DNA of 64,000 bases from Cupriavidus pauculus. Lineage in GTDB: Bacteria; Pseudomonadota; Gammaproteobacteria; Burkholderiales; Burkholderiaceae. The position numbers and the translations under genes were made by a program. This document shows positions 2,297 to 24,276 of the stretch, one piece after another; position 1 is the stretch's first letter; each line of letters opens with the position of its first letter. The stretch is from NCBI RefSeq assembly GCF_002858765.1, contig NZ_PJRP01000001.1:276742-340741 (forward strand), given 5' to 3'. A model generated the notes under the pieces. That model was not told where the DNA came from. It worked only from the letters and a program-made list of their open reading frames with translations, and made no database searches.

Positions 2297-3268
2297 ATGG
2301 GCGCCATCGTTAACTGTGCGGCCTATCGCAATGGCAAGAAGCTGGGCAAGGTGGATTTCGCCGATATCGGCCAGGTGCTGACGGAACCGGGCACGTTCGT
2401 CTGGCTGGGCCTGCACGAGCCCGATCTGACGCTGCTGCGCCGCGTGCAGCAGGCGTTCGGGCTGCATGACCTGGCCGTGGAAGACGCGCTGGACGCCCAT
2501 CAGCGGCCCAAGCTCGAAACCTACGGCGATTCGGTGTTCGTGGTGCTCAACACCGTGCAGCTGGTGGGCGAGGAGGTGGTGGTGGGCGAGACCCACCTGT
2601 TCGTCGGCCCGAACTACGTGGTGTCGGTGCGCCACGGCGCCAGTTCTACCTATGCGCCGGTGCGCGAGCGCTGCGAGGAAGATCCGCACGGGCTGGCCAA
2701 CGGCCCTGGCTACGTGCTGTACGCGCTGATGGACTTCGTGGTCGACCATTACCTGCCCATCCTCACGCGGCTGGAGGACACCTTCGAGCAGCTGGAGCAG
2801 GGCATTTTCCGGGACGAGTTCGACCGCGAGGCCATCCAGCGGCTCTACCACGTCAAACACCAGGTGCTGCGGCTGCGCAATGCCGTGTATCCGGTGGAGG
2901 ATATGTGCGGCCAGCTGATCCGGTTGCATGAAGACCTGGTGCCCAAGGAACTGCGGGCCTACTTCCGCGACATCGAGGATCACTGCAGCCGCATCGTGCG
3001 ATCGCTGGACGTGGTGCGCGAGATGCTGACCACGGCCGTGCAGGTCAACCTGGCGCTGGTGACCGTGACCCAGAACGAGGTGGTCAAGCGCCTGGCCGGG
3101 TGGGGCGCCATCCTGGCCGTGCCGACGGTGGTGTTTTCGCTGTACGGCATGAACTTCAGCTTCATGCCCGAGTTGAAGTGGCACTACGCGTATCCGGCGG
3201 TGATCGGCTTCACCGTGACGGCCTGCGGGCTGCTCTGGCGCAAGCTGCACCGGGCCGGCTGGATCTAG
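2297..3268 (+). CDS. corA: CorA family magnesium/cobalt transporter
   Basis: 323-residue CorA-type channel for Mg2+ (also Co2+ and Ni2+) in the inner membrane. It has a large cytoplasmic alpha/beta N-domain and two C-terminal transmembrane helices (about 265-285 and 297-317), with the signature YGMNF at the end of the first (GMN at residues 284-286). The ATG at 2297 follows a GGAGG at 2289-2293. The frame is open back to 2168 without homology. It diverges from minC and appears to be a single-gene unit. Confidence 0.94.
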
Positions 3269-3633: not shown

Positions 3634-3722
3634 TGGACTGGACCGACCTGCTTAGCGGCGGCCTGGCCGTCGCCATCTTCATCTATCTGCTCGTAGCACT
3701 GTTCCGGCCGGAGAAATTCTGA
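3633..3722 (+). CDS. kdpF: K+-transporting ATPase subunit KdpF
   Basis: 29-residue peptide consisting almost entirely of one transmembrane helix and ending in the characteristic LFRPEKF. KdpF is a small lipid-like stabilising subunit of the KdpFABC complex. Its start overlaps the stop of the small ORF upstream and its stop overlaps the kdpA start (TGATG at 3720-3724). Length and C-terminus are typical. Confidence 0.93.
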
Positions 3723-5566: not shown

Positions 5567-5581
5567 TTCGCGGAGATTCTC

Positions 5582-7819
5582 ATGCAACAACAATCCCCGG
5601 CGACGCGTAACACCCCGGCCGCGCCGTCGCGTCCCACCGGTACGGCCCCCAACGCCACCACCACGGCGGTCAGCGGCGGCGTGCCGCATCACCCACGCCC
5701 CGCGCGCGGCATGTTCTCGCCCGAACTGGTCAAGCCGGCCATGCTCGATGCGCTGCGCAAGCTCACGCCGCGTGCGCAGCTGCGCAATCCCGTGATGTTC
5801 GTGGTCTACGCGGGCAGCATCCTGACGACGATCCTGTTCCTGCGTGCCTGGCTCAGCCCGGTGCATGGCGGTGAGTCCGCGGGCTTCATCCTGGCCGTTG
5901 CCGTCTGGCTGTGGTTCACGGTGCTGTTCGCCAACTTTGCCGAAGCCCTGGCCGAAGGCCGCAGCAAACAGCAGGCCGCCGCGCTGCGTGGGCTCAAGAC
6001 CACCACCATGGCGCGCGTGGTGCGTCGGGGGCGCGGCGATGCGCGCGCCCCCGGTGCCACCGAGCCGGTGATCGCCACCGATCTGCGTCGCGGTGACATC
6101 GTGCTGGTCGAAGCCGGCGAGATGATTCCTGGTGACGGCGAGGTCATCGAAGGCGTGGCGTCAGTCGACGAAAGCGCCATCACGGGTGAATCGGCCCCGG
6201 TGATCCGCGAATCGGGGGGCGACTTCTCGTCGGTCACGGGCGGCACGCGCGTGCTGTCCGACTGGATCGTGGTCCGCATCACGACCAATCCCGGCGAAAG
6301 CTTCATCGACCGCATGATCAGCATGGTCGAAGGCGCCAAGCGCCAGAAGACGCCGAACGAACTGGCGCTGACGATCCTGCTGGTGGGGCTGACGCTGGTG
6401 CTGCTGCTGGCCACCGCCACGCTGCAGCCGTACTCGCTGTACGCCGTGCTGGTGACCAAGGCCGGCGTGCCGGTATCGGTGACGGTGCTGGTGGCGCTGC
6501 TTGTATGCCTGATCCCGACGACGATCGGCGGCCTGCTCTCGGCCATCGGCGTGGCCGGCATGAGCCGCATGATGGAAGCCAACGTGATCGCCACGTCGGG
6601 CCGCGCGGTGGAGGCCGCCGGCGACGTCGACGTGCTGCTGCTGGACAAGACCGGCACGATCACGCACGGCAATCGCCAGGCTGCACGCTTTATCTGCGCT
6701 CCGGGCGTGAACGAACGCCAGCTGGCCGAGGCCGCCTGGCTGTCGTCGCTGGCCGATGAAACGCCCGAAGGCCGCAGCATCGTCGCGCTGGCGCGCCAGC
6801 AACCGGGCGTGACCGCGCCGGAGATGGGCACGCGCGGGTTGGCCGCACCGGTCTTCGTGCCGTTCACCGCGCAGACGCGCATGAGCGGCGTCGATGTGGC
6901 GCAAGGCAACGTCGTGCGCAGCGTGCGCAAGGGCGCGGCCGATGCGGTGCGCCGCTACGTGACCGAGCGCGCCGGCAAGTTCCCCGAGGCGGTCATGCAG
7001 GCCGTCGACGATGTGGCACGCGCCGGCAGCACGCCCCTGGTGGTGGCCGAGGCGCTGTCCGAAGGCACCGAGGACAGCGTGCGCGTGCTGGGCGTGGTCG
7101 AGCTCAAGGACATCGTCAAGACCGGCATCCGCGAGCGCTTTGGCGAACTGCGCAAGATGGGCATCCGCACCGTGATGATCACCGGCGACAACCGCCTGAC
7201 GGCGGCATCGATCGCGGCCGAAGCCGGCGTCGACGACTTCCTGGCCGAAGCCACGCCCGAAGCCAAGCTGGCGCTGATCCGCGAATACCAGGCGCAGGGC
7301 CGCCTGGTGGCGATGACCGGTGACGGCACCAACGACGCCCCCGCGCTGGCGCAGGCCGACGTAGCGGTGGCCATGAACAGCGGCACGCAGGCCGCCCGCG
7401 AGGCCGGCAACATGGTCGACCTGGACAGCAACCCGACCAAGCTGATCGAGATCGTCGAGATCGGCAAGCAGATGCTGATGACGCGCGGATCGCTGACCAC
7501 GTTCAGCGTGGCCAACGACGTGGCCAAGTATTTCGCGATCATCCCGGCGGCATTCGCCACCACGTATCCGCAACTGAACCTGCTGAACGTGATGCATCTG
7601 TCCACGCCGGCGTCGGCCATCATGTCGGCCGTGATCTTCAACGCGCTGATCATCGTGGCGCTGATTCCGCTGGCGCTGCGCGGCGTGGTGTATCGCCCGC
7701 TGGGCGCCGCCATCCTGCTGCGCCGCAACCTGCTGATATACGGGCTGGGCGGCATCCTGGTGCCGTTTGTCGGCATCAAGCTGATCGACCTGTTCCTGAC
7801 GATGTTCGGCTGGATCTGA
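5582..7819 (+). CDS. kdpB: K+-transporting P-type ATPase subunit KdpB
   Basis: 745-residue P-type ATPase, the energising subunit of KdpFABC. The phosphorylation motif DKTGT has its aspartate at D355; the TGES loop of the actuator domain ([10 protein letters not shown]) and the hinge motif [12 protein letters not shown] are present. The N-terminus carries an extra Ala/Pro/Thr-rich stretch of about 45 residues before homology starts, making it longer than E. coli KdpB (682). A GGAG lies upstream of ATG 5582. It is in the operon between kdpA and kdpC. Confidence 0.96.
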
Positions 7820-7834
7820 GTACGGAGAACTGCA

Positions 7835-8452
7835 ATGTCTTCACAAGCCCAAATCAATACCCTGCCCGAACCGGCACGCCAGGCAGGCATGCTGCGCCCG
7901 GCGTTTACCGTGTTCGTCGGCCTGTCCATCGTCACGGGGCTGCTCTATCCGGGCGTGGTCACCGGCATCGCTCGCGCGGTGTTTCCGCACCAGGCCGCCG
8001 GGTCGCTGATCGTGCAGAACGGCAAGGTGGTTGGCTCCGAGCTGATCGGCCAGCCGTTCTCGGACGCGAAATACTTCTGGGGCCGCCTGTCGGCCACGGC
8101 GCCGATGCCGTACAACGGCGCGGCGTCGGTGGGCTCGAACCTGGGCCCGACCAACCCGGCGCTGACCGACGCGGCCCGCGCACGCATCGACGCGCTGCGT
8201 GCGGCCGACCCGGATAACCATGCGCCGGTGCCGGTGGATCTGGTCACGGCGTCGGGTAGCGGGCTGGATCCGCATATCAGCCCGGCCGCAGCCGCGTACC
8301 AGGCCGCCCGCGTGGCACGGGTGCGTGGCATCGCGCAGCAGAAGGTGGACGCGCTGATCGCCGTCAACACAGAAGGGCCGGGGCTTGGCGTGCTGGGCGA
8401 GCCCGGTGTCAATGTGCTGAAGCTGAACCTGGCGCTGGATGCTGCGAAGTAG
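7835..8452 (+). CDS. kdpC: K+-transporting ATPase subunit KdpC
   Basis: 205-residue KdpC with one N-terminal transmembrane helix (about 20-42) and a periplasmic domain. Typical motifs are [22 protein letters not shown] and [11 protein letters not shown]. KdpC assists assembly and K+ affinity of the pump. A CGGAGAA ribosome site precedes ATG 7835, 15 bases after kdpB. It is the last structural gene before the repeat that separates it from kdpDE. Confidence 0.95.
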
Positions 8453-8475
8453 ACGCGTAGTTGTTGATGCGCTTA

Positions 8476-8589
8476 CCCTCTCCCCCGCCCCTCTCCCGCA
8501 GGCGGGTGAGGGGAGCACACCCCCCGCAGTCGACATGCCGCTGGTTGTCTCTCCTTTCCCGCAGGCGGGAGAGGGGCCGGGGGAGAGGG
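8476..8589 (+). repeat. REP/BIME-like palindromic repeat between kdpC and kdpD
   Basis: Two C/T-rich arms, 8476-8499 and 8565-8589, are reverse complements of each other except for one base (24 of 25). Each arm is followed or preceded by its own smaller hairpin around CCCGCAGGCGGG. Related but shorter palindromes lie at 3290-3317 and 54722-54752, so this is a dispersed extragenic repeat. Between kdpABC and kdpDE it could attenuate or stabilise the messenger and so let the pump be made in excess over the sensor pair; that role is inferred. Confidence 0.8.
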
Positions 8590-8638
8590 CCGGCGCGTGC
8601 AAACACAAGACCTGCCTGCGTGGCACAATCCCCGCACG

Positions 8639-11497
8639 ATGACTGACACCGCCCGCCCGGACCCCGACGCCCTGCTGCAACGCATGCAGGCGGATGGCGT
8701 GCGCGCCGCGCGCGGCAAGCTGCGGGTCTACTTTGGTGCATCGGCCGGCGTGGGCAAGACCTTTGCCATGCTGGCGGCCGCGCGGGCCTTGCGCGAGCAG
8801 GGCGTGGACATGGTGATCGGCGTGGTCGAAACCCACGGCCGCGCCGAAACCGAATCGCTGGTGGATGGCCTGGAGCGACTGCCGCTGCGCGATGTGCCCT
8901 ATCGGGACCGCGTGCTGCAGGAGTTCGATCTCGATGGCGCGCTGGCGCGGCGCCCTGCGCTGGTGCTCGTCGACGAACTCGCGCACTCGAACGCGGCGGG
9001 CAGCCGCCATCCCAAGCGCTGGCAGGACATCCAGGAACTGCAGGCCGCCGGCATCGACGTCTGGACCACGGTCAACGTCCAGCACCTGGACAGCCTGAAC
9101 CAGGCCGTGGGCGGCATCACCGGCGTGCGCGTCTGGGAAACCGTGCCCGACGCCGTGTTCGATGGCGCCGATGAAGTGGTGCTGGTGGACCTGCCCGCCG
9201 ACGAACTGCTGCGCCGGCTGCGCGAAGGCAAGGTGTACCTGCCCGAGCAGGCGCGCCACGCGGCCCGCCATTTCTTCCGCAAGGGCAATCTGATCGCGCT
9301 GCGCGAACTGGCGCTGCGCCGCACCGCCGATCGCGTCGATGACGACGTGCGCGCCTACCGCCATGCCGAGGCGATCCAGCCGGTCTGGCGCACGCGCGAG
9401 GCCGTGCTGGCGTGCATTGGCACCGGCGACGATGCCGAACAGGTGGTGCGCAGCGCGCGGCGCCTGGCCAGCCAGCTCGACTGCGACTGGCACGTGGTCA
9501 CCATCGCCACGCCACGGCTGATGCCGCTGGCCGACCCCATTCGCGTGCGCGTGCGCGCGGCCATGCAACTGGCCGAGGAACTGGGCGCCCGCACCGAGAC
9601 GCTGGCCGGACACGACATGGTCAAATCGGTAGCGGGCTACGTGCGCCGCCACAACCTGACCAAGGTGCTGGTGGGGCGCGCCCGTACCGACTGGCACGCC
9701 GAAGGCAGCCTGGTGAACCAGGCGCGCATGTGGCTGGCGCGCGCGTTGTCGCCGGTAGTGGGCGCGGGCAACCGGCTGATCGGCAGGCAGACGTTTGCCG
9801 ATGCGCTGGCGGCCGGATGCCCCGAGATCGACGTGATCCGCGTAGCCGCCGACACCACGCGTGCCGATCTGCGGCCGCGCGCGCCGCAGATGGTGACGCC
9901 CCACGACGATGCCGAGGCGCAGGCCGCCATCGAGGCTCGGGCCGAACTGGCACGCACGCGCCGGCGCGACTACGCGTTCGCCTTGGTGTGGTGCGCCGGT
10001 GCCACGGGGCTGTCGATGCTGGCGCGTCCGTGGTTCGACCTGGTCAACATCGCCATGTTGTTCCTGGCCGGCGTGGTTGGCGTGGCCTTGCGCCATGGCC
10101 GGGGGCCGGCGGCGCTGGCATCGGTGCTGGCGGTGGCGGCGTTCGATTTCTTCTTCGTGGCGCCCACGATGTCGTTTGCCGTCAGCGATGTGCAGTACCT
10201 GCTGACGTTCTTTGTCCTGCTGACGGTCGGCCTCGTCATCGGTCAGCTGACAGCTGGCCTGCGCGAGCAGGCGCAGGTGGCCGTGCGGCGCGAAACCGAT
10301 GCGCGCACGCTGTATGAACTGGCCCGCGAACTGTCGGCCGCGCTGACCACGGAGCAGGTGGTCGAGATCGGCAGCCGCTTCATGCGCGCCGCGTTCGAGG
10401 CGCATGTGACGTTCTTCCTGGTGTCAGAGCAGGGGCGGCTGGTGCCAATGACGCGCGGCACCCCGGCCGAGCACGCTGACAAGACCGACAAGGGCGAGGC
10501 CATCGACACGGTGCTGGCGCAATGGGTGTTCGACCATGGCCAACCGGCCGGCACAGGCACCCATACGCTGCCCGGCAGCACGGTGCTCTACCTGCCGCTG
10601 AAGGCGCCGATGCAGACGCGTGGCGTGCTGGCCGTGGAGCCGCGCGCCTGGCACGCGCTGGCCGAGCCCGAACTGCGGCGCCAGGCCGATGTCTTCACCA
10701 CGCTGATCGCCATCGGCATCGAGCGGCTGCACTACGTGGAAGTGGCGCAGCGCGCGCTGGTGTCGATCGAATCGGAACGGCTGCGTAGCTCGCTGCTGGC
10801 CGCCGTGTCGCACGACCTGCGCACGCCGCTGACGGGGCTGATCGGCATGGCCGAGACGCTGCAGCGGGCCACGCCACCGCTGGCAGGCGACGTGGCCGAG
10901 ACGGTCGACGCCATGCGCGGCCAGGCGCTGCGCATGCGCACCATGGTGGTGAACCTGCTCGACATGGCCAGGCTACAGCAGCACGACGTGTCGCTGCAGC
11001 GCGGCTGGCAATCGCTGGAGGAACTGGTGGGCGCGGCACTGGCGTCGATGCGCGAGGCACTGAAGGCGCATCGCGTGCAGGTGACCGACCTGTCCGCGCT
11101 GCCGCTGGTGGAGTGCGACGGCGTGCTGATGGAGCGCGTGCTGTGCAACCTGCTGGAGAACGCAGCCAAGTACACCGCGCCCGGCACCGTGGTGCGCATC
11201 CGCGGCGAGCTGCTGGACGACGAAGTGCGCCTGGTCGTCGAGGACGAAGGCCCCGGCGTGGCGCCGGGCCAGGAGCGCCACATCTTCGAGAAATTCACGC
11301 GCGGCCAGCGCGAATCGGCTACCGCCGGCGTGGGCCTGGGGCTGGCCGTGTGCGACGCCATTATGCAGGCCCACGGTGGCCGCATCTGGGTGGAATCGGC
11401 CGGCCCCGGCGCACGCTTCATGCTGGCGCTGCCGCGCGGCAATCCTCCCGCCGTCGAGCCGGAACCGCTCGACGCCATCCTTCCTGATCCGCACTGA
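8639..11497 (+). CDS. kdpD: Osmosensitive K+ channel sensor histidine kinase KdpD
   Basis: 952-residue sensor kinase controlling kdp expression. Order: KdpD N-domain with Walker A GASAGVGKT (about 33-41), Usp-like domain (about 250-380), four-helix DUF4118 membrane region (about 440-540), a GAF-like segment, HisKA with phospho-acceptor H725 in VSHDLRTPL, and HATPase with DEGPGV and GVGLGLAVC. ATG 8639 was chosen over an in-frame GTG at 8597, which lies just past the repeat. It overlaps nothing and is followed one base later by kdpE. Confidence 0.95.
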   Translation: MTDTARPDPDALLQRMQADGVRAARGKLRVYFGASAGVGKTFAMLAAARALREQGVDMVIGVVETHGRAETESLVDGLERLPLRDVPYRDRVLQEFDLDGALARRPALVLVDELAHSNAAGSRHPKRWQDIQELQAAGIDVWTTVNVQHLDSLNQAVGGITGVRVWETVPDAVFDGADEVVLVDLPADELLRRLREGKVYLPEQARHAARHFFRKGNLIALRELALRRTADRVDDDVRAYRHAEAIQPVWRTREAVLACIGTGDDAEQVVRSARRLASQLDCDWHVVTIATPRLMPLADPIRVRVRAAMQLAEELGARTETLAGHDMVKSVAGYVRRHNLTKVLVGRARTDWHAEGSLVNQARMWLARALSPVVGAGNRLIGRQTFADALAAGCPEIDVIRVAADTTRADLRPRAPQMVTPHDDAEAQAAIEARAELARTRRRDYAFALVWCAGATGLSMLARPWFDLVNIAMLFLAGVVGVALRHGRGPAALASVLAVAAFDFFFVAPTMSFAVSDVQYLLTFFVLLTVGLVIGQLTAGLREQAQVAVRRETDARTLYELARELSAALTTEQVVEIGSRFMRAAFEAHVTFFLVSEQGRLVPMTRGTPAEHADKTDKGEAIDTVLAQWVFDHGQPAGTGTHTLPGSTVLYLPLKAPMQTRGVLAVEPRAWHALAEPELRRQADVFTTLIAIGIERLHYVEVAQRALVSIESERLRSSLLAAVSHDLRTPLTGLIGMAETLQRATPPLAGDVAETVDAMRGQALRMRTMVVNLLDMARLQQHDVSLQRGWQSLEELVGAALASMREALKAHRVQVTDLSALPLVECDGVLMERVLCNLLENAAKYTAPGTVVRIRGELLDDEVRLVVEDEGPGVAPGQERHIFEKFTRGQRESATAGVGLGLAVCDAIMQAHGGRIWVESAGPGARFMLALPRGNPPAVEPEPLDAILPDPH

Positions 11498-11498
11498 G

Positions 11499-12194
11499 AT
11501 GCCATTCGATTATTCGCCGACCGTGTTGCTGGTCGAGGACGAACCCCATATCCGCCGCTTCGTGCGTGAATCGCTGCAGGCCGAAGGCTGCACAGTGCAC
11601 GAGGCCGACACGCTCAAGCGTGGCCTGATCGACGCCGGCACGCGCCAGCCGGACATCGTGATCCTGGACCTGGGCCTGCCCGATGGCGACGGCATGACGC
11701 TGATCCGCGAAATGCGCACCTGGACGGAGGTGCCGGTGCTGGTGCTGTCCGCGCGCACCGACGAAGCCGACAAGATCGCCGCGCTCGATGCCGGTGCCGA
11801 CGACTACCTGACCAAGCCGTTCGGCGTGGGCGAACTGGTGGCGCGCGTGCGCGTGCTGCTGCGCCGCCACGCGAAGACGAACCCGCAGGGCACGCCGCAG
11901 ATCACGTTCGGCGATGTCCGCGTGGACATGGCCAACCGGCTGGTCACGCGCGGCGACGCGCAGGTGCATCTGACCCCCATCGAATACCGGCTGCTGGCGG
12001 TGCTGATCGCCCATCGCGGCAAGGTCATGACCCATCGCGAACTGCTGCGCGAGGTCTGGGGGCCGGCCCACTCGGAAAGCAGCCACTACCTGCGTGTCTA
12101 CATGGGACACCTGCGCCACAAGCTGGAACTGGACCCCGCGCAGCCGGTGCACCTGCTGACCGAGGTGGGCGTCGGATACCGGTTCGCGGGATAG
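11499..12194 (+). CDS. kdpE: Response regulator KdpE
   Basis: 231-residue OmpR/PhoB-type regulator. The receiver domain (1-120) has the acidic pocket at VEDE and phospho-acceptor D57 in VILDLGLPDGDG; the winged-helix DNA-binding domain spans about 130-231 and ends YRFAG. Phosphorylated by KdpD, it activates the kdp operon, presumably through the T-rich site at 3353-3369. The start lies one base after the kdpD stop, so the two are translationally linked. Confidence 0.95.
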   Translation: MPFDYSPTVLLVEDEPHIRRFVRESLQAEGCTVHEADTLKRGLIDAGTRQPDIVILDLGLPDGDGMTLIREMRTWTEVPVLVLSARTDEADKIAALDAGADDYLTKPFGVGELVARVRVLLRRHAKTNPQGTPQITFGDVRVDMANRLVTRGDAQVHLTPIEYRLLAVLIAHRGKVMTHRELLREVWGPAHSESSHYLRVYMGHLRHKLELDPAQPVHLLTEVGVGYRFAG

Positions 12195-12298: not shown

Positions 12299-12333
12299 TT
12301 CCATGGCCCTGTACGTCGAGTTTGGAAGGATTG
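12299..12333 (+). promoter_or_regulatory. Leader element shared by the two head-repeat genes (copy 1)
   Basis: TTCCATG (12299-12305), a 17-base spacer and TGGAAGGATTG (12323-12333) are found 78 bases before the start of the decayed head-repeat gene. The same two blocks, with an 18-base spacer, lie 68 bases before the second copy at 21892. TTCCA and TGGAA are complementary. This is a conserved promoter or leader signal of unknown type; its function is inferred only from conservation. Confidence 0.4.
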
Positions 12334-12411
12334 GATGGCCATCGTGGCAGCCAGGGCGATCACGCCAGCTACCGCGAGGGCGATTCCGAAACTGACTTCT
12401 GGAGCGACGCA

Positions 12412-13343
12412 ATGACACAAAACGTATCTCAGCAGGCCGCCGCACTGGCCGCAGGCGTTCAATATTTCCGCGCCAACAGCACGGGCCCCGATGCAACCGC
12501 CACCGGCACCAACGCCATTGCCATTGGGGATACGGCCCTGGTGGATGGCGATCACAACACCCTGGCGATCGGCACGGGCGCCCACAGTGGCGGGAACTAC
12601 AGCGCGGCGGTGGGCCGGGAGGCGACGGCCACGGCCGTCTGGTCGACGGCGCTCGGTGCCCAAAGCGCCGCCATCGGCGAAAAAAGTACCGCGCTGGGCA
12701 GTTCTACCGTGGCATCGGCCATCAACACCATGGCCGTGGGTATCAAGGCTGCCGCCGTTGCCGAAAGCGCGACGGCGTTCGGGCAACTGGCCAATGCGAC
12801 GGCGCCTTATAGCGTTGCCATTGGCGTGGCCAGTGCGGCCACCGCGGGCGACGCTATCGCTATCGGCACCAAGGCCGGTGCCTCGGCAGCCAATTCGATC
12901 GCACTGGGCCTGGCCCTGGTATCCGCCGCACGGGGCATCGCGATTGGCGACCAGAGCTATGTCAGTGGTTCGCAGGCCGTGGCGATCGCATCGAATTTCA
13001 GCGCCAGCGCGTTGTTTGCCGATGCGATCGGGGCGAAGTCGCAAGCCACGCAGCCCGGTGCCGTTGCCCTGGGAACCAGCTCGACGGCCACGGCGATCTT
13101 CAGTCTCGCCCTGGGCAGCCAGGCACGAGCCAATGTGGATTACGGTGTGGCGCTGGGCAATGAATCGGTTTGCGATCGTCCGATGGCGGTGTCGGTTGGC
13201 CGCGAAGGCGTGCGGACGCGGTAAATCGTGAATGTGGCGGCGGCGACACAAGGCACCGACGCGGTGAATCTTGAACAGCTTCAGCAGGAACTGGTCAGAT
13301 CGCCGCGCTGGCCACGCGCGTGACGGCACTGGAAAACGCCTGA
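12412..13343 (+). pseudogene. Decayed trimeric-autotransporter-like head repeat protein (copy 1)
   Basis: Starting at MTQNVSQQAAALAAGVQYF, the frame encodes about 270 residues of YadA/Hep_Hag head repeats (periodic AIAIG, SIALG, AVALG strands about every 14 residues). It stops at TAA 13222-13224, exactly where relatives continue RQIVNVAAGT; the same frame after the stop reads IVNVAAATQGTDAVN, so one C-to-T change ended it. A second lesion, a frameshift near 13295-13300, precedes a tail reading IAALATRVTALENA and the old stop at 13341-13343. No signal peptide and no YadA membrane anchor are visible. An upstream in-frame start (12322) exists but lacks support. Confidence 0.75.
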
Positions 13344-14252: not shown

Positions 14253-14358
14253 GAGATATCGGCCGGCGCGGTTGCCGGCCGCCGCCCGTCGGCAGGGAAC
14301 GGGCAGGCGGTACAAGTCTTGCTAAGCCTGACGCTACACACAACCCCGGGGGTCGCCA

Positions 14359-17300
14359 GTGGTCACGCACGTCGCGCTGAGTCATGTCACACACTACCGC
14401 TATGACCGTCCGGTGCAGTTGTCGCCGCAGGTTGTACGCCTGCGTCCGGCACCGCATTGCCGCACGCCGATCCTGGCCTACTCGCTGCGCATCGAACCGG
14501 TGCAGCATTTCGTCAACTGGCAGCAGGACCCATTCTCGAACTACCTGGCCCGCCTGGTGATTCCGGAGAAAACCACGGAATTCCGCGTGACGGTGGACCT
14601 GATCGCCGAGATGGCGGTCTACAACCCGTTCGATTTCTTCCTGGAGCCGTCGGCCGAGAAGATTCCGTTTGCCTACGATGCCGGGCTGGCGCACGACCTC
14701 GCGCCCTACCTGGCAAAAGACCCGCTGACGCCGCGCCTTTCCACCTTTGTCGACAGCATCGACCGCGCGCCGCGTGCCACGCTGGATTTCCTGGTGGACC
14801 TGAACCAGCGGCTGCAGCGCGAGATCCGCTACCTGATCCGCATGGAACCGGGCGTGCAGTCGCCCGAGACCACGCTGGAAAACGCGTCGGGATCGTGCCG
14901 CGACACCGGTTGGCTGCTTGTGCAGACGTTGCGGCATCTGGGGCTGGCCGCGCGCTTCGTGTCCGGCTATCTGCTGCAGCTGACCCCCGATGTGAAAGCC
15001 GTGGATGGCCCGGTGGGCGCCGAAGCCGATTTCACCGACCTGCACGCCTGGTGCGAGGTCTACCTGCCCGGCGCAGGCTGGATCGGGCTCGATCCCACGT
15101 CGGGGCTGCTGGCCGGCGAGGGCCATATTCCGCTGGCCTGCACGCCGGAGCCCAGCAGCGCGGCGCCGGTCAGCGGGGCGGTGGACGAGTGTGAGGTGAC
15201 GTTCGAGCACCATATGTCGATCGCGCGCATCTACGAGTCGCCGCGCGTGACCAAGCCCTATACCGATGCGCAGTGGACGGCCATTGACGCAGCCGGCCTG
15301 GCCGTCGACCGCCAGCTGCAGGCGCTCGACGTACGGTTGACGATGGGCGGCGAGCCCACCTTCGTCGCCGCGCGCGACCGTGACGGCGCCGAGTGGAACA
15401 CCGATGCGCTGGGGCCCACCAAGCGCGGCCTGGCCACCGAACTGGTGCACAAGTTGCGGGCGCGCTACGGCGAAGGCGGCTTCCTGCATTTCGGCCAGGG
15501 CAAGTGGTATCCCGGCGAACAGTTGCCGCGCTGGGCGCTGTCGATCTGCTGGCGTGCCGATGGGCAGCCTTGCTGGCAGGACCCATCGCTGTTTGCCGAC
15601 GAGCGCCAGCTCGACCACTACACGCCGGCCGATGCCCAGCGCTTTCTCGACACGCTGGCGCGGCGGCTCGGGCTCGACGCCAGCGCCGTCACGCCCGGCT
15701 ACGAGGACGTCTGGTACTACCTGTGGCGCGAGCGCCGGCTACCCGTCAACGTCGATCCGTTCGAGGCGAAGCTCGACGACGAAATGGAGCGCACCCGGCT
15801 GCGGCGCGTGTTCGACGCCGGGCTGTCCAGCGTCACCGGCTACGTGCTGCCGCTGGCGCGCGACAGTCAGGACGATAGTCAGGGCGGCGGCTGGCTGACC
15901 AGCCGCTGGTTCGTGCGCGACGAACGCATGTACCTGCTGCCCGGCGATTCGCCGATGGGTTACCGGCTGCCGCTCGATTCGCTGCCGTGGGTGTCGAAGG
16001 CCGACTACCCGTGGCAATTCGAGCAGGACCCGTTCGCACCCCGCTCGCCGCTGCCAACGGCGGCGCCGCTGCGCGCGCAATCGCCGGCCGCCGCCTACAG
16101 CCCGGCGGCAATGGCCGCACGCCGGGCCGAAGCGCGTGGCCAGCCACGCCCGGGTGGCAAGCTCGCCACGCCGGCCATGGCGCCGGCGCGCGGAGAATCG
16201 GCCGGCGACACCATCCGCACGGCGCTCTGCGTGGAGGTGCGCCACCCAAGCCGTGCCGCCGGCCCCGCCGTCGAAGCCAAGTCCATGGATGACAAGCGCG
16301 GCATCCTCTATGTCTTCATGCCGCCGCTGACCGTGCTGGAGGATTACCTGGCGCTGCTGTCGGAGGTGGAAGCCACCGCCGCCGAACTGGGCGTGAGGAT
16401 CGTGCTGGAAGGTTATCCGCCTCCGCGCGACCCGCGTCTGAAGCTGCTGCAGGTGACGCCAGACCCGGGCGTGATCGAGGTTAACATCCATCCCGCCGCC
16501 AACTGGCCGGAACTGGTGGACCACACCGACTACCTGTACCAGGCCGCGCACGAAACGCACCTGTCCACCGAGAAGTTCATGCTCGACGGGCGCCACACCG
16601 GCACCGGCGGCGGCAACCACTTCGTGCTGGGCGGCGCCACGGCGGCCGACAGCCCGTTCCTGCGCCGACCCGACGTGCTGGCCAGCCTGATCGCGTACTG
16701 GCTCAACCATCCGTCGCTGTCGTACCTGTTCTCGGGGCTGTTCATCGGACCGACCAGCCAGGCGCCCCGCGTGGACGAGGCGCGCAACGACCAGGTCTAC
16801 GAACTGGACATCGCGTTCGACGAACTGCGCCGCCAGCTTGACCTGTGCGAGGTGATGGGCAATGGCCAGGTGCCGCCGTGGCTGATCGACCGCATCCTGC
16901 GCAACCTGCTGGTCGACGTGACGGGCAACACGCACCGTTCCGAGTTCTGCATCGACAAGCTGTACTCGCCCGACGGGCCCACGGGCCGGCTGGGGCTGCT
17001 GGAACTGCGCGCGTTCGAGATGCCGCCGCACGCGCGCATGAGCCTGGTGCAGCAACTGCTGCTGCGCGCGATGGTGGCACGCTTCTGGCGCACGCCGTAC
17101 ACGGCGCGGCTGACGCGCTGGGGCAGCGCGCTGCACGACCGGTTCATGCTTGGCACCTTCGTGCAGATGGATTTCGACGATGTGCTGGCCGAAATGCGCG
17201 CCGCCGGCTTTGTCTTCGAGTCGAGCTGGTTCGCGCCGCATTTCGAGTTCCGCTTCCCGCGCGTGGGCGAGGTCGACGTGGCGGGGCTGTCGCTGACGCT

Positions 17301-17796
17301 GCGCACCGCGCTGGAGCCGTGGCATGTGATGGGCGAGGAGGGTGCGCCCGGCGGCAACGTACGCTATGTCGATTCGTCGGTGGAACGCATCGAGGTCAGC
17401 GTGCTGGGCATGAACGACAACCGGCACGTGGTCACGGTCAACGGCCAGACCATTCCGCTGCAGCCTACCGGGCGGGCCGGCGAGTTCGTGGCCGGGGTGC
17501 GCTATCGCGCCTGGGCGCCGCCTTCGTCGCTGCATCCCACCATCCCGTCGCACGCGCCGCTGACCTTCGACGTGGTGGATACGTGGATGGACCGCAGCCT
17601 GGGCGGCTGTCAGTATCATGTTTCGCACCCGGGCGGCCGTAATTACCAGACATTCCCGGTCAATGCATACGAGGCGGAAAGTCGTCGCCTGGCGCGGTTC
17701 TTCGCGATCGGGCATACGCCGGGGCGGTCGGTGGCGCCGCCGCCACGCCGCAGTCTGGAATTCCCGTTCACGCTGGACCTGCGCGATATTGCGTAG
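14359..17796 (+). CDS. Transglutaminase-like / DUF2126 putative amidoligase fusion
   Basis: 1145-residue two-part protein with a GTG start. The N-terminal 280 residues are a bacterial transglutaminase-like cysteine protease with triad C180 (GSCRDTGW), H229 (DLHAWCEV) and D245 (GLDPTSG). The remainder is DUF2126, annotated in Pfam as a putative amidoligase (glutamine-synthetase-like); MGGEPTFV, LHFGQGKWYPGEQLP and the glycine-rich GTGGGNHFVLGG near residue 746 are conserved-looking. Predicted role: form and cleave peptide or amide bonds in a small-molecule or peptide pathway; substrate unknown. It overlaps the next gene's long frame and forms an operon with the ATP-grasp and transglutaminase genes. 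Confidence 0.88.
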   Translation: MVTHVALSHVTHYRYDRPVQLSPQVVRLRPAPHCRTPILAYSLRIEPVQHFVNWQQDPFSNYLARLVIPEKTTEFRVTVDLIAEMAVYNPFDFFLEPSAEKIPFAYDAGLAHDLAPYLAKDPLTPRLSTFVDSIDRAPRATLDFLVDLNQRLQREIRYLIRMEPGVQSPETTLENASGSCRDTGWLLVQTLRHLGLAARFVSGYLLQLTPDVKAVDGPVGAEADFTDLHAWCEVYLPGAGWIGLDPTSGLLAGEGHIPLACTPEPSSAAPVSGAVDECEVTFEHHMSIARIYESPRVTKPYTDAQWTAIDAAGLAVDRQLQALDVRLTMGGEPTFVAARDRDGAEWNTDALGPTKRGLATELVHKLRARYGEGGFLHFGQGKWYPGEQLPRWALSICWRADGQPCWQDPSLFADERQLDHYTPADAQRFLDTLARRLGLDASAVTPGYEDVWYYLWRERRLPVNVDPFEAKLDDEMERTRLRRVFDAGLSSVTGYVLPLARDSQDDSQGGGWLTSRWFVRDERMYLLPGDSPMGYRLPLDSLPWVSKADYPWQFEQDPFAPRSPLPTAAPLRAQSPAAAYSPAAMAARRAEARGQPRPGGKLATPAMAPARGESAGDTIRTALCVEVRHPSRAAGPAVEAKSMDDKRGILYVFMPPLTVLEDYLALLSEVEATAAELGVRIVLEGYPPPRDPRLKLLQVTPDPGVIEVNIHPAANWPELVDHTDYLYQAAHETHLSTEKFMLDGRHTGTGGGNHFVLGGATAADSPFLRRPDVLASLIAYWLNHPSLSYLFSGLFIGPTSQAPRVDEARNDQVYELDIAFDELRRQLDLCEVMGNGQVPPWLIDRILRNLLVDVTGNTHRSEFCIDKLYSPDGPTGRLGLLELRAFEMPPHARMSLVQQLLLRAMVARFWRTPYTARLTRWGSALHDRFMLGTFVQMDFDDVLAEMRAAGFVFESSWFAPHFEFRFPRVGEVDVAGLSLTLRTALEPWHVMGEEGAPGGNVRYVDSSVERIEVSVLGMNDNRHVVTVNGQTIPLQPTGRAGEFVAGVRYRAWAPPSSLHPTIPSHAPLTFDVVDTWMDRSLGGCQYHVSHPGGRNYQTFPVNAYEAESRRLARFFAIGHTPGRSVAPPPRRSLEFPFTLDLRDIA

Positions 17797-17852
17797 TGCA
17801 CCGGCGTAACCGGCATGTCCGGCGTGCCCAGCCCACAGGAGAAACGTCAGCC

Positions 17853-20564
17853 GTGCCGTTGCAGTCGTCGCTGCCTTTCGATGGATCGGATCTTGCCGAC
17901 GCCCCGGCCGCCTTGGCGGGCCGGCTGGCGCTGCCCGTGCCCGATGGCCATCGCGACGAACTGCGCCTGCCCGACGGCACGCTGCGCGAACCGTGGGCGC
18001 GCTTCTTCGGCATCCTGGACGACCTCCGCCCCGCCGCGCTGAATGCCCATGCGGCGGCGGTGTCGCGCCGCATCCGCGACAACGGCGTGACGTACAACGT
18101 CTACGCCGACCAGGGCGGCGCGCGCGCCTGGCAGCTGGAGGTATTCCCGTTCCTGGTGTCCGAAGCCGACTGGGCCGCGATCGAGGCCGGCGTGACCCAG
18201 CGCGCCACGCTGGCCAACGCCATGCTGGCCGACATCTACGGGCCGCAGACCCTGCTGCGGCGCGGGCTGCTGCCGCCGGGGCTGGTCTACGGGCATCCCG
18301 GCTATCTGCGCCCGCTCAAGGGCTACCAGCCGCCGGGCGGCAGCTTCCTGCAGACCATCGCGGTGGATCTAGTGCACACCGACGATGGCTGGACGGTCAT
18401 CGCGCATCGCACCGAGACGCCGTCGGGCATGGGCTACGCGCTGGAAAACCGGCTCATCATCTCGGGCCAGTATGCCGAGGCGTTTCGCGAACTGCGCGTG
18501 CGGCGCCTGCCGCCGGCCTTCGCGCAGTTGATCTCGACGCTGGCGCATGCCGCGCCCGCCGCGCCGGTGGGTCTGGCGGAAGAGGGCGCCAGCGCAGGCA
18601 TGGGTACGGGCGCAGGGACGGGCACAGTTGTCGGTACAGGGCGGCAGATCGTGCTGCTGTCGCCGGGCCCGTTCAACGAGACCTACTTCGAGCACACGTT
18701 CCTGGCCCGCTACCTGGGCATCACGCTGGTCGAGGGCAAGGACCTGACCGTGCGCAACGACGTGGTGTACCTGAAGACATTCGGCGGGCTGGAGCGCGTG
18801 GACGTGATCCTGCGCCGGCTCGACGATGTGTTCTGCGATCCGCTGGAACTGCGCAGCGATTCCATGCTCGGCGTGCCCGGCCTGCTGGAGGCGATGCGCG
18901 CGGGCAACGTGGTGGTGTCGAACGTGCCAGGGTCGGGCTTCCTGGAGTCGCCGGCCATCCACGGGTTCCTGCCCGGCATCGCGCAGGCCCTGCTGGATGA
19001 ACCGCTGGCGCTGCCGTCGGTCATGAGCTGGTGGTGCGGCGAGGCCGCCGCGCAGGACGCCGCGCTGCGCCTGCTCGATGAAGCCTTCGTGATGCCTACC
19101 TATCCGCGCACGCCGGCCGATGCCTTGCTGGGCATGGAGAGAGGGCTGCAGCCGCTCGATGCCTGGCGCGCCCGCATCGCCGAAACGCCAGATCGCTTTA
19201 CGCTGCAGGCGCCATTGCCGCTCTCGCATACGCCTTGCTGGGAGCCCGGCGACAAGGGCGGCGGAAGGATCGGCTCGCGTGCGGCCATGCTGCGCGTGTT
19301 CGCGGTGGCCGATGGCAATGGTGGCTGGCAGGTCATGCCGGGCGGCTTCACGCGGCTGGCGCCGCCGCACCTGGAAGCCGTATCGATGCAGCTTGGCGGC
19401 ACCAGCGCCGACACGTGGGTGCTGTCGAACCAGCCCGCACAGGGGCTGATGCCGTCGCCGCGCGCCGGGTCGGTATTCCCGCCACCGTCACCGTCGCCAC
19501 GTACCACGCTGCCGTCGCTGGGCACGACGGCGGTGACACGGCCGCTGGCCGTATCGAGCCGAGCCGCCGAGAACCTGTTCTGGGCTGGCCGCTATGCCGA
19601 GCGCGCCGAGAACGTGGTGCGCGTGTGCCGCCAGATCCTGGGATCGATCGAATCGAACGACGAGACCGACGAGGGCACGCTGAACATGCTGGGCCTGCTG
19701 GCGCAGTGGTTCGGACTGGTGGCGCCGAACACCCCGTCGCCGCAGGCGTCGCTGCGCGTGTTCGAGCGCAGCCTGGTCTCCACGCTGGCTGATCCGCACG
19801 CGGTGACGGGGCTGATGCCGACGCTGGCCAGCCATGCCCGCGCCGCCAACGAGATCCGCAACCGGTTGTCGAACGACCACTGGCGCACGATTCTGGCCGC
19901 GCGCAACGACTTCCAGGATGCGATGGCCGATGCCGCATGCCAGGCTGGCACGGCGGGCCACGGCGAGGGGGCCTACGACCGCTCGAAGGTGCTGGTGGCG
20001 CTGGAGCATCTGTCGATGCAGCTTGGCGCGATCAGCGGCGCGCAGGGCGACCGCATGACGCGCGACGAAGCGTGGCGGCTGGTCTTTATCGGCCGCCATA
20101 TCGAGCGGCTCGGCACGCTGGCGCTGTTTCTGGAGGTGGCGGAGGGCAGCGGCGCGCTGGCGTCGCGCAGCGGCTTCGACATGCTGTTGCACCTGTTCGA
20201 CAGCACGCTGACGTACCGCTCGCTGTTTCCGGGGCGGTCCGATGTGGCGGCGCTGGTCGACCTGCTGGTGCTGGAGCCGACCAACCCGCGCGGCCTCTAC
20301 GGCGTGCTGGACCGCCTGCGCGACAAGCTCGCGCAACTGCCAACCGGCGCTACGGCCCAAGCGCGCGTGCCGCTGGCCGAACTGCTGCCGCCGACGACGG
20401 CGCTGCCGTCGCGCTCGCTGCTGTGCGTACGCGAGAAGGATCGCTACCCGAAGCTGGCGGCGCTGTGCGACCAGCTTGGCGGGCGCATGGCCAAGCTGTC
20501 CGAAGAAATCGGCGGCCGCTACTTCAGCCATGCCGGCGTGGCGCCGGAAACGGACCTGCCATGA
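17853..20564 (+). CDS. Circularly permuted ATP-grasp / Alpha-E fusion protein
   Basis: 903 residues from the GTG at 17853, which has an AGGAGA site at 17836-17841; an upstream GTG (17796) overlapping the previous stop is possible but lacks such a site. The first 540 residues are a circularly permuted ATP-grasp domain (VYADQGGARAWQLEVFP, GYQPPGGSFLQTIAVD, GPFNETYFEHTFLARYLG), predicted to ligate carboxyl and amine groups with ATP. From about 563 (AVSSRAAENLFWAGRYAERAENV) to the end is the all-helical Alpha-E domain. These occur as two genes in many genomes and as a fusion here. A Pro/Ser/Thr-rich linker joins them. Confidence 0.9.
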   Translation: MPLQSSLPFDGSDLADAPAALAGRLALPVPDGHRDELRLPDGTLREPWARFFGILDDLRPAALNAHAAAVSRRIRDNGVTYNVYADQGGARAWQLEVFPFLVSEADWAAIEAGVTQRATLANAMLADIYGPQTLLRRGLLPPGLVYGHPGYLRPLKGYQPPGGSFLQTIAVDLVHTDDGWTVIAHRTETPSGMGYALENRLIISGQYAEAFRELRVRRLPPAFAQLISTLAHAAPAAPVGLAEEGASAGMGTGAGTGTVVGTGRQIVLLSPGPFNETYFEHTFLARYLGITLVEGKDLTVRNDVVYLKTFGGLERVDVILRRLDDVFCDPLELRSDSMLGVPGLLEAMRAGNVVVSNVPGSGFLESPAIHGFLPGIAQALLDEPLALPSVMSWWCGEAAAQDAALRLLDEAFVMPTYPRTPADALLGMERGLQPLDAWRARIAETPDRFTLQAPLPLSHTPCWEPGDKGGGRIGSRAAMLRVFAVADGNGGWQVMPGGFTRLAPPHLEAVSMQLGGTSADTWVLSNQPAQGLMPSPRAGSVFPPPSPSPRTTLPSLGTTAVTRPLAVSSRAAENLFWAGRYAERAENVVRVCRQILGSIESNDETDEGTLNMLGLLAQWFGLVAPNTPSPQASLRVFERSLVSTLADPHAVTGLMPTLASHARAANEIRNRLSNDHWRTILAARNDFQDAMADAACQAGTAGHGEGAYDRSKVLVALEHLSMQLGAISGAQGDRMTRDEAWRLVFIGRHIERLGTLALFLEVAEGSGALASRSGFDMLLHLFDSTLTYRSLFPGRSDVAALVDLLVLEPTNPRGLYGVLDRLRDKLAQLPTGATAQARVPLAELLPPTTALPSRSLLCVREKDRYPKLAALCDQLGGRMAKLSEEIGGRYFSHAGVAPETDLP

Positions 20565-21616
20565 GCGATCCGCTGAGCAAGGCCGAGCCGCGGGCGCTGC
20601 CGGAGTCGACCGGGTCGCCCGAGCTGCCCGAGCCGCTTGAGCCGCTTGAGCCGCCATCGACGCCCACCACGCTCGACGTGCATCACGTCACCACGTATCA
20701 GTACGCCTGGCCCGTGGAGCATGCGCAGCAGCGTGCCGTGGTGACGCCGCCGTCGTACCCGTGGCAGGCCGTGAGCGCGCACCGGACCGATGTGGAGCCA
20801 GCCCCGTCGCACCAGCACATGCGCACCGATGCGTTTGGCAACAACGTGCTGCATTTCATGCTCGATGTGCCGCACGAGACGATGCGCCTGACCACCTGCA
20901 GTACGGTCACGCTCACGCCGCGCTGGGCCGCGTTCGATCCCGCGCAAGGCATGCCGTGGGAAGAGGCGGCCCAGCGGCTGCGCTACCGAGCCGGCCAGCC
21001 GTTCCATCCGGAGGCCGAATTCGCGTACGCGTCGCCGAACGTGGCGCTGCACGCCGACCTGCGCGACTACGCGCGGCGCAGCTTCACCCCGGGTGTGACC
21101 GTGGCGGCCGGTGCCATCGACCTGATGCATCGCATCCACGCCGACTTCGAGTACCACGGCGAGACCACCGAAGTGCATACGCCCGCGCTGGAGGCCTTTG
21201 CGCTGCGTAGCGGCGTCTGCCAGGACTTTGCGCAGGTGATGATCGGCTGCCTGCGCTCCATCGGCCTGGCCGCGCGCTATGTCAGCGGCTATTTGTGCAC
21301 CGATCCGCCGCCGGGCGAGCCGCGCCTGCTGGGTGCCGATGCCTCGCACGCGTGGGCCGGCGTGTGGTGCCCCACCAACGGCTGGATCGATCTCGATCCC
21401 ACCAACGACGTGCTGGCCGACACGCGCCACGTGACCCTGGCCATCGCACGCGACTACAGCGACGTGCCGCTGCTGCACGGCGTGATCGTCGGCGGCGGCG
21501 AGCACACGGTGGAGGTGGAGGTGAGCGTGGTACCGGTGATGGATGCCGAGTCCGAGTCCCTCTGCCCCGAGCGATCGCCCGCAGCCCAGCGCGACGTGCC
21601 CGCCGGGCGCAGCTGA
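20561..21616 (+). CDS. Transglutaminase family protein of the ATP-grasp/Alpha-E operon
   Basis: 351 residues, starting at ATG 20561 which overlaps the stop of the ATP-grasp gene (ATGA). After a Pro/Glu-rich N-terminus (residues 1-38) comes the bacterial transglutaminase N-domain (LDVHHVTTYQYAWPV) and a papain-like core with C220 (GVCQDFAQVM), H263 (ASHAWAGVW) and D279 (IDLDPTND). Such enzymes act as peptidases or acyl-transferases. Third gene of the operon; no proteasome-like Anbu gene, often seen with this set, follows in the window. Confidence 0.9.
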   Translation: MSDPLSKAEPRALPESTGSPELPEPLEPLEPPSTPTTLDVHHVTTYQYAWPVEHAQQRAVVTPPSYPWQAVSAHRTDVEPAPSHQHMRTDAFGNNVLHFMLDVPHETMRLTTCSTVTLTPRWAAFDPAQGMPWEEAAQRLRYRAGQPFHPEAEFAYASPNVALHADLRDYARRSFTPGVTVAAGAIDLMHRIHADFEYHGETTEVHTPALEAFALRSGVCQDFAQVMIGCLRSIGLAARYVSGYLCTDPPPGEPRLLGADASHAWAGVWCPTNGWIDLDPTNDVLADTRHVTLAIARDYSDVPLLHGVIVGGGEHTVEVEVSVVPVMDAESESLCPERSPAAQRDVPAGRS

Positions 21617-21891: not shown

Positions 21892-24276
21892 ATGACAACG
21901 AATGAACGGACGGCAACGCCGAGGCGCAGGCGCCAGGTCTTCCGAACAATGCGGGGCTGCCGGAGGAGGGCGTCAAGTACTTCCGGACTAGCGCGGGGAC
22001 CGGACGCATCCGCTACGGGATTCAACGCCGTCGCCATCGGGCTGAATGCTGTCGCCTCGATGAGCAACGCCGTGGCCTTGGGCTGCTGGGCGACGTCGAC
22101 CCAGGACAACGGCGTTGCGATTGGCACCTACGCCAATGCCAGCGCAACGAATTCGACTTCAGTCGGCAACAAGAGCGTCGCATCGGCCTTGGGAGCGTCG
22201 CTCTGGGAGATCGCTCCACGGCCGATCAGGAGTACTTTGTATCGGTCGGCAATCCGGATCGGCAACGCACCATCGTGTACCTGGCACCGGGCGAGGTGTC
22301 GAGCGCCAGCACCGATGCCGTCAACGGCAGCCAGCTCTACGCCACGGACCAGCGCGTGACGGCGCTGGAGTATTTCCACGTCAACAGTTTCAAGCCCAAC
22401 GAGGAGGCCGCTGGTGGCGATGCCATCGCGATTGGGCCCCCTGGCGGACGCATCGGGCAGCGGTGGCATGGCGCTGGGCCTGGAAGCGGTGGCAAGTGGC
22501 CAAAGCTCGACCGCGCTGGGCAGCAACGCCGTCAGCGGCGCGGACTGGGCGCAGGCCATCGGCAGCCGTGCGGCAGCCATCGGCACAGGCGACGTGGCCG
22601 TCGGCGTGAACGCCCAGGCCAACGGTGGGGGCACCGCCGCGCTGGCCGTGGGGACGAGTGCCAGCGCAACCGGTGCCGGCGCCACGGCGCTCGGTCGTCA
22701 GGCCAGCGCCACGGCGTCGGACAGCGTTGCCATCGGCCAGGGCAGCGTCGCGAATCGCGAGGGCACGGTATCGGTGGGCACGCTGCTGAAGCCGCGCCGC
22801 ATCGTGCACGTGATGAAGGGCGAGCTCGATTCGGATGCCGCCACGGTGGGCCAGCTCAAGGACGCCGGGTTGAACCTGAACGCGGCTGGCGAGGTGTCCA
22901 ACGCGTTCGTGGCCTATGACGACGCCACCCTTGGTTGCGTGACGCTGTCCAACACGGTGGTCACGAACCTGGCGCTCGGCGAGCTGACGGAAGCCAGCCA
23001 GGATGCGGTGACCGGCGCGCAGCTGTTCGCCGTGAGCCAGGAACTCGGCGAGGCCATCACCGCACTGGGCCAGATCCACACCGCCATGGACGAGATCACG
23101 ACCGGCGACGCCGGGGTGATGTACTTCCACGTCGACTCGACCGCGGCGGATGCCGGCGCCAGCGGCACCAACGCCCTGGCCATCGGCCCGAATGCCTGGC
23201 CGATCAGTACCGGCGCGGCGGCCGTGGGCGACGCCACCGTGGTGAGCGCGACGGCTGGCCTGGCATTGGGCGCGGGCGCCAACGTGTCGGGGTCGTACAG
23301 CGTGGCCATCGGCCAAGGCAGCCTGGCGGACCGCCCGAACACCGTGTGGGTGGGGTCGTCGGCCGCACGGCGCCGCATCGTCAACGTGGAGGCCGGGGTG
23401 GCCGGGGTGGCCGAGTCCGACGCGGTCACGGTGGGGCAATTGCGCGCCGCCGGGCTGGACGTGAACGTGGCCGGCAACGTCAGGAACGCATTCCTGGCCT
23501 ACGACGACAGCTCGAAGGCCCGCGCCACGCTGGACAACACGCTGGTGACCGGGCTGCGCGCGGCCGACCTGAGCCAGTTGAGCACCGATGCGGTGGTAGG
23601 CGGCCAGCTGTTCGAGACCAACGCCAAGGTGACGAAGAACACGCAGGACATCGCCGGCCTTGCGCAGACCGTGGCGGGCATCAGCACGGGCGATGCCGAC
23701 CTGAAGTACGTGCAGGTGAAGTCCACGGGTTCCGAGGCGACGGCCAATGGCAACAACGCCATCGCCATCGGGCCGCAGGCGCTGGCCAAGGGCGGTGGCA
23801 GCATCGTGGTGGGCGACGGCGCGACCATGGCCAGCACGGGCAGCGGCATCGTGCTGGGCCGCAGCGCGCGGGTCGAGAGTGGCGCTGGCGGCGAGGGGGC
23901 GATTGCGGTGGGCAATGCAGCGTATGTATCGGCCAACAGCGCGGTGGTGATCGGCGCCTCGGCCTCGGCATCGAAGACCGACAACGTGGCGATTGGCGGC
24001 GTGGCGGCGGCATCGGGCACGACGACGGTGGCGATTGGTGCCAACGCCGTGGCCTCCGCGACGAACGGCGTGGCACTCGACGCCAAGTCGGCGTGCGACC
24101 GCGCCAAATCGGTGTCGGTCGGCAGCGCCAGCCTGCAACGGCAGATCATCAACGTGGCAGCGGGTACGTCATCGACCGACGCCGTCAACGTCGGCCAGCT
24201 CACCACGATGCTGGCGGAACGCGACGCGCTGCTGGCCAGCCTGCAGGAGCGCCTGGCCGCTCTGGAGTCAGCATGA
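21892..24276 (+). pseudogene. Frameshifted trimeric-autotransporter-like head repeat protein (copy 2)
   Basis: The homologous reading moves between frames: EEGVKYFRTSAG (near 21960-21990, second frame), PDASATGFNAVAIG (22000-22190, first frame), ALGDRSTADQEYFVSVG through VYLAPGEV and GGDAIAIGP (22195-22436, second frame), then LADASGSGGMALG to the stop at 24276 (first frame). Switches fall near 21905, 21995, 22195 and in the C5 run at 22437-22441. The last frame alone codes for about 610 residues with three head blocks, each followed by neck motifs (RRIVHVMKGE, RRIVNVEAGV, RQIINVAAGT) and a short coiled coil. No signal peptide or YadA anchor. Either a decayed gene or assembly error; the 3' part could still be expressed from a later start such as 22414. 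Confidence 0.7.

Follow-up and report, generated by a model that had tools for sequence, protein, structure and literature searches.

Iyer et al. (PMC3268129) predicted in 2009 that a gene set found in many bacteria is a peptide-synthesis or tagging system, as cited in passages of three later papers (PMC5666114, PMC6376114, PMC3597751), one of which holds that peptide synthesis has become a less likely role in view of its own data on Anbu (a passage of PMC5666114). The 2009 system is composed of a circularly permuted ATP-grasp protein (CP-ATP-grasp), Alpha-E, a glutamine synthetase (GS)-like protein, transglutaminase-like proteins and the proteasome-like Anbu. The window analysed here is a stretch of 64,000 nucleotides of Cupriavidus pauculus (RefSeq assembly GCF_002858765.1, contig NZ_PJRP01000001.1, positions 276,742 to 340,741 of the forward strand), which contains an operon of three genes, A, B and C, made of the same families. 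A preliminary description of this DNA, made from the letters and their translations, had put the operon forward as an undescribed system; the 2009 prediction, which later papers cite, already covers the set, so that label has to be dropped. Since the degenerate ATP-grasp that is fused to Alpha-E in gene B found no mention in the literature searched, which did not extend to the text of Iyer et al., we regard the locus as belonging to a known kind of system, with one variant feature that merits testing. Although predicted since 2009, and although roughly one in three sampled genomes of the phylum has DUF2126 (46/150), this ligase system has no defined product in that literature, in line with the preliminary description.

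The variant feature lies in gene B, which matches CP_ATPgrasp_2 (PF14403, 437 bits) and Alpha-E (PF04168, 186 bits). An E-x-N pair is present in 45/45 stand-alone relatives and in 0/105 fused proteins of the gene B type; in all 105 both E and N are replaced, and so is most of the D-D-K stretch. The fused count, gene B included, is made up of 82 proteins, L096 and a further 22, and the stand-alone count of 40 plus 5, with three stand-alone fragments of less than 300 amino acids (L045, L095, L095_2) omitted from the motif alignment. L096 has its best BLAST match among stand-alone proteins, but it is in frame with an Alpha-E match, lacks E-x-N and was counted as fused, while most of the 22 are truncated by the ends of short loci, their fused state being read from frame lengths, and three of them (L127, L128, L129) come from genomes without DUF2126. 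In those genomes, G024, G114 and G124 of the census described below, a fused ATP-grasp/Alpha-E frame thus occurs without DUF2126, and it too is without E-x-N. A regular-expression count gave the pair in 41/44 stand-alone and 0/82 fused proteins. Escherichia coli Gss and the Methylobacillus flagellatus structure 3n6x, both of ATP-grasp fold, possess the pair that gene B lacks. The stand-alone ATP-grasp of Yersinia bercovieri released phosphate from ATP, according to a passage of PMC6376114; the E-D-N motif discussed here was read from the stand-alone protein of the C. pauculus genome (locus L088) and not from the Y. bercovieri enzyme.

Because the E-x-N pair of the stand-alone relatives is missing from all fused-type proteins examined, the ATP-grasp of gene B is, to judge from these alignments, probably not a working ligase and would serve instead as a non-catalytic partner. 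The Alpha-E domain that it bears is intact, with E592, N593, R599, Y600, E602 and R603 invariant across 53 sequences. Of the five predicted activities first attributed to the operon, this one is left without support. It could be argued that the ATP-grasp of gene B has a remodelled metal site and has remained catalytic, giving two working ligases in series as the preliminary description assumed, seeing that D191, R341, D343 and D344 are conserved, that the modelled fold is intact and that the domain is maintained across phyla; with the replacements listed above, and with the stand-alone form retained in every census genome that has the fused form, we consider this doubtful. All 44 such genomes carry both forms (co-occurrence P 8e-15, relatedness ignored).

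The conservation of the gene set was followed in two samples. The first comprises 80 relatives, the best of 586 DUF2126 matches, with fetched stretches of up to 10 kb on each side; the second is a census of 150 genomes of the same phylum as the source. The nearest named proteins come from Cupriavidus, with 95% identity for DUF2126, against 87% in the genome collection. All three genes occur in order on one strand in 74/80 relatives, and the remaining six run into contig ends; the ATP-grasp match begins no more than 700 bp from the DUF2126 match in 69 of the 74 complete relatives, and a stand-alone CP-ATP-grasp also lies within the fetched stretch in 36/80. Records of Enterobacter and Burkholderia cenocepacia have the order stand-alone set, transglutaminase–DUF2126 gene, fused set. 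In the census, DUF2126 was found in 46/150 genomes, CP-ATP-grasp above the cut-off in 84/150 and Anbu in 54/150, and every one of the 46 genomes with DUF2126 also has a CP-ATP-grasp. That these genes travel together, as first proposed, is borne out by both samples.

The two fusions, thought at first to be special to this locus, are not. The acidobacterium Granulicella tundricola has the same three-gene operon, with DUF2126 at 42% identity, and among the 46 census genomes with DUF2126 the transglutaminase–DUF2126 fusion is a single frame of more than 1000 amino acids in 45, while 41 have a fused ATP-grasp (frame of more than 800 amino acids) no more than 3 kb from DUF2126 on its contig. These counts rule out an operon unique to the window or fusions of an unusual kind. 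Of the five exceptions, G081 is cut at a contig end, in G049 DUF2126 sits at the edge of a contig, and G036, G064 and G076 have stand-alone forms only, with Anbu directly adjoining DUF2126. In 11/46 genomes Anbu is no farther than 1 kb from DUF2126, and in the other 35 none is listed within 10 kb. By these neighbourhood counts, fusion is the rule and Anbu a facultative neighbour.

The source genome (7.40 Mb, 38 contigs) has a single DUF2126 gene, two CP-ATP-grasps and two Alpha-E domains, i.e. those of the window operon and, on contig C34, a stand-alone pair. After this pair come a transglutaminase-like gene and then a proteasome-like gene. The latter matches Anbu structures (designed Anbu 5loy, E 1.1e-92), and the genome therefore encodes an Anbu, within a paralogous CP-ATP-grasp/Alpha-E/transglutaminase/Anbu operon (L088). 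It is the sole Anbu of the genome, of a family that we take to be COG3484, and lies on a contig other than that of the window. A search with a true Anbu query found none in the window operon and none in the fetched stretches of the 80 relatives. The statement that no Anbu gene follows accordingly stands for this operon and fails for the genome, which the C34 gene rules out as one lacking Anbu. A second match to PF00227, at C34:350185, was rejected as Anbu and is instead the beta-proteobacterial proteasome homologue BPH (5ovu), and a third, on contig C1 with 85.8 bits, is probably HslV. The BPH gene (L089:7183-7815; region C34:343000-352750 of the source genome, G000) lies between genes resembling a 2-oxoacid dehydrogenase acyltransferase and a dihydrolipoyl dehydrogenase. 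On a plasmid of Acidithiobacillus caldus (L092), two Anbu-like genes (2311-3033 and 5944-6735) stand beside DUF2126, a stand-alone CP-ATP-grasp, Alpha-E and ntrC/glnL.

These neighbourhoods bear on the tagging idea of Iyer et al., according to which proteins receive an amino acid or peptide tag from the ligases, and the tag is removed or its target degraded by the transglutaminase-fold enzymes or, elsewhere, by Anbu. The set does unite a GS-like amidoligase with peptidase-fold enzymes, often with Anbu, as in the genomes where the latter adjoins DUF2126 and in the paralogous operon of C. pauculus, and the idea is cited in passages of PMC5666114 and PMC6376114; we hold it possible but unlikely, as most DUF2126 genes of the census have no Anbu listed nearby and, in a passage of PMC6376114, Anbu used as bait gave no specific interaction with co-expressed proteins of the Y. 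bercovieri operon.

The domains expected to do chemistry in the window operon are those of genes A and C. Gene A matches Bact_transglu_N, Transglut_core and DUF2126 (1328 bits), and gene C matches Bact_transglu_N and Transglut_core. Alignment of homologues agrees with the first reading of two transglutaminase-fold cysteine enzymes with complete triads: C180, H229 and D245 of gene A are kept in 86/86 aligned homologues, and C220, H263 and D279 of gene C in 81/82, 82/82 and 80/82, respectively. In the transglutaminase-like protein of the stand-alone set, four of six aligned sequences, from the Burkholderia loci L057, L068, L075 and L097, have serine at the position of the catalytic cysteine, which hints at a second degenerate enzyme of the system. 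The structure predicted for DUF2126 has a GS fold and is nearest to glutamine synthetases, with GmaS and 1-naphthylamine GS among its structural matches; GS-like motifs (GGEP, GGGNH, NTHR, ELR) were matched by eye in GS order, and an hhalign comparison was not significant. A GS-fold amidoligase, as first supposed, is plausible on the strength of this model.

Evidence on regulation comes from the DNA upstream of the operon. In 79 of the 80 relatives' loci (L036 was excluded as too near a contig end), a sigma-54-type site, defined by a score of at least 4 and TTGC within 200 bp upstream, was found ahead of DUF2126 in 59/62 relatives where this gene is first in the operon, compared with 7/62 on the opposite strand; L065, scored as a miss among the 62, is probably internal. 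Internal DUF2126 genes have such a site in 2/17 cases (Fisher p 2e-11 against the first-gene loci) and on their other strand in 5/17, and random windows in 78/2000. At 16/16 internal loci where the start of the stand-alone ATP-grasp could be placed, a site scoring at least 5 lies near that gene, in a larger search window and without a shuffle control. Palindromes of NtrC type (at least 9/10 bases) occur in 25/62 first-gene relatives compared with 55/1000 random stretches. In the window, the candidate element at 14308-14322 is an island of conservation shared with four Cupriavidus relatives, and the A. caldus plasmid has ntrC/glnL and an aliphatic amidase gene in the vicinity of the gene set.

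Published work agrees with nitrogen control. By RNA-Seq, in an ntrC mutant of B. cenocepacia H111 under nitrogen starvation, genes I35_5080-83, which encode DUF404/407, DUF403, transglutaminase-like and large transglutaminase-like proteins, were down 8.2-, 9.4-, 9.4- and 6.0-fold and are named common sigma-54/NtrC targets (passages of PMC5491218); we equate them with the gene order of L097 from annotation and order and not from H111 sequence. A sigma-54-like site ahead of a CP_ATPgrasp_1 gene is given in a passage of a Bradyrhizobium study (PMC13207237), and the proteasome-type protease COG3484 is included in a computational sigma-54 regulon study (PMC12316311, in part). The operon is likely to be switched on by nitrogen starvation, and by analogy that of the window would be expected to respond like the B. 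cenocepacia cluster. The -24/-12-like site of the window is by itself at chance level, the best NtrC-type palindrome there has 7/10 bases, and the promoter scan found no sigma-54-type site at the Anbu operon of the source genome. Against nitrogen control stands that expression of the Anbu operon proteins was unchanged under various other conditions, according to a passage of PMC5666114.

Taking these lines together, we give even chances to a sigma-54-driven nitrogen-starvation operon with a DUF2126 ligase, transglutaminase-fold cleavers and a non-catalytic gene B. Nitrogen limitation would lead to sigma-54-driven expression of the three genes; DUF2126 of gene A would form an amide bond of peptide or gamma-glutamyl type at the expense of ATP, and hydrolysis or transfer of such amides would fall to gene C and to the transglutaminase-fold domain of gene A, while gene B, bearing Alpha-E, would act as a non-catalytic partner and may bind the stand-alone paralogue or DUF2126. 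What is joined and cut is presumably an amide bond. The product may be a gamma-glutamyl amide or a peptide, or else a protein tag or a secreted compound.

A concrete form of this proposal is a nitrogen salvage route in which amines are gamma-glutamylated, as by PuuA and GmaS; here DUF2126 would glutamylate an amine and the transglutaminase-fold enzymes would free glutamate or ammonia. Transglutaminases act on gamma-amides, and nitrogen control and the GS-like modelled fold, with GmaS and 1-naphthylamine GS among its matches, point the same way; the three-gene operon, the extent annotated for such genes, has no amine oxidase or dehydrogenase gene, and we rate this form as tentative. Production of a secreted bioactive metabolite is far less probable: a gene entry 'ATP-grasp protein/alpha-E protein/transglutaminase protein/protease' is given for the antinematode metagenomic clone jj117 in a review table citing a thesis (PMC7764037, in part), but the same table gives the compound as unknown, and nitrogen control points to metabolism. 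The boldest extension of the nitrogen-starvation proposal, which we offer as speculative, is that gene B is the founding member of a conserved pseudo-ligase class, i.e. an ATP-grasp with a dead metal site joined to Alpha-E, for which an intact stand-alone CP-ATP-grasp is an obligate partner and which docks either the latter or DUF2126 onto the two transglutaminase-fold enzymes; the result would be a split machine under nitrogen-starvation control, by which a new peptide or amide molecule or tag is made and broken down. A probable pseudo-enzyme never found without a stand-alone relative, together with sigma-54-type promoters, offers a guide to the protein to assay, its partner and the growth condition.

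Table 1. Features of the three-gene operon, with positions in the 64,000-nucleotide window
Feature	Positions	Strand	Basis or remark
Candidate sigma-54 (-24/-12) promoter element CGGTACAAGTCTTGC	14308..14322	+	36 bp upstream of gene A; 2 mismatches to TGGCAC-N5-TTGC
Gene A, fusion of transglutaminase-fold domain and DUF2126, 1145 amino acids	14359..17796	+	Open reading frame listing, Pfam; GTG start common to Cupriavidus relatives
Gene A N-terminal Bact_transglu_N and Transglut_core, triad C180/H229/D245	14374..15096	+	Pfam; triad 86/86
DUF2126, predicted glutamine-synthetase-fold amidoligase	15184..17784	+	
Likely Shine-Dalgarno AGGAG of gene B	17837..17841	+	Read off the sequence directly
Gene B, fusion of degenerate circularly permuted ATP-grasp and Alpha-E, 903 amino acids	17853..20564	+	Likely GTG start 17853; longest open reading frame from 17796
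Gene B residues 203-207 AHRTE (numbering from 17796), at the position of the E-D-N-x-R motif of stand-alone relatives	18402..18416	+	
Gene B Alpha-E domain, ER motif intact	19554..20525	+	PF04168, 186 bits
Gene C, second transglutaminase-fold protein, 351 amino acids, triad C220/H263/D279	20561..21616	+	Open reading frame listing, Pfam

The listing gives three neighbouring open reading frames on the forward strand (14359-17796, 17796-20564 and 20561-21616), the last within a longer frame opening at 19937. Two overlaps had been taken to join the genes: the ATGA at 20561-20564 between B and C is present, whereas that at 17794-17798 is doubtful as an artefact of the longest-frame start. AGGAG precedes the GTG at 17853, and the protein from there opens VPLQSSLPF, like many gene B homologues, which open MPxQS or MAxQS (their own starts being picked by script); gene B therefore probably starts at 17853, probably 56 bp from gene A. 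Upstream of the operon lies a cluster of kdpA, kdpB-like, kdpC, kdpD and response-regulator (kdpE-like) genes (3722-12194). Two frames with YadA head repeats (12322-13224 and 22414-24276) flank the operon and a Sel1-repeat gene; the second also has YadA stalk segments, and neither has a YadA anchor match. They look like lineage-specific insertions, since tblastn against the 80 relatives, at E 1e-10 and with the low-complexity filter on, gave no match to them and the KdpE–Sel1 and gene C–GatB gaps of one relative (L002) are too short to hold them.

Set beside the system of Iyer et al., the window operon has the same domain families in one operon, with CP-ATP-grasp and Alpha-E in gene B and DUF2126 and transglutaminase-like genes around it; it differs in having no Anbu and in an ATP-grasp that is fused to Alpha-E and without E-x-N, so that the likeness would fail on this point if a working ligase is needed. 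The Anbu operon of Y. bercovieri, Pseudomonas aeruginosa and others (passages of PMC5666114 and PMC6376114), of which L088 is the paralogous copy in C. pauculus, also combines CP-ATP-grasp, Alpha-E and a transglutaminase-like protein. Its stand-alone ATP-grasp keeps E-D-N in L088, while gene B does not, and the four-gene form described in those passages has no DUF2126, where the window operon has no Anbu. The cluster I35_5080-83 of B. cenocepacia H111 (PMC5491218, in part) is alike in all four of its protein families and is sigma-54/NtrC dependent; its DUF2126 gene probably comes after a stand-alone set, whereas the window locus carries the fused set only.

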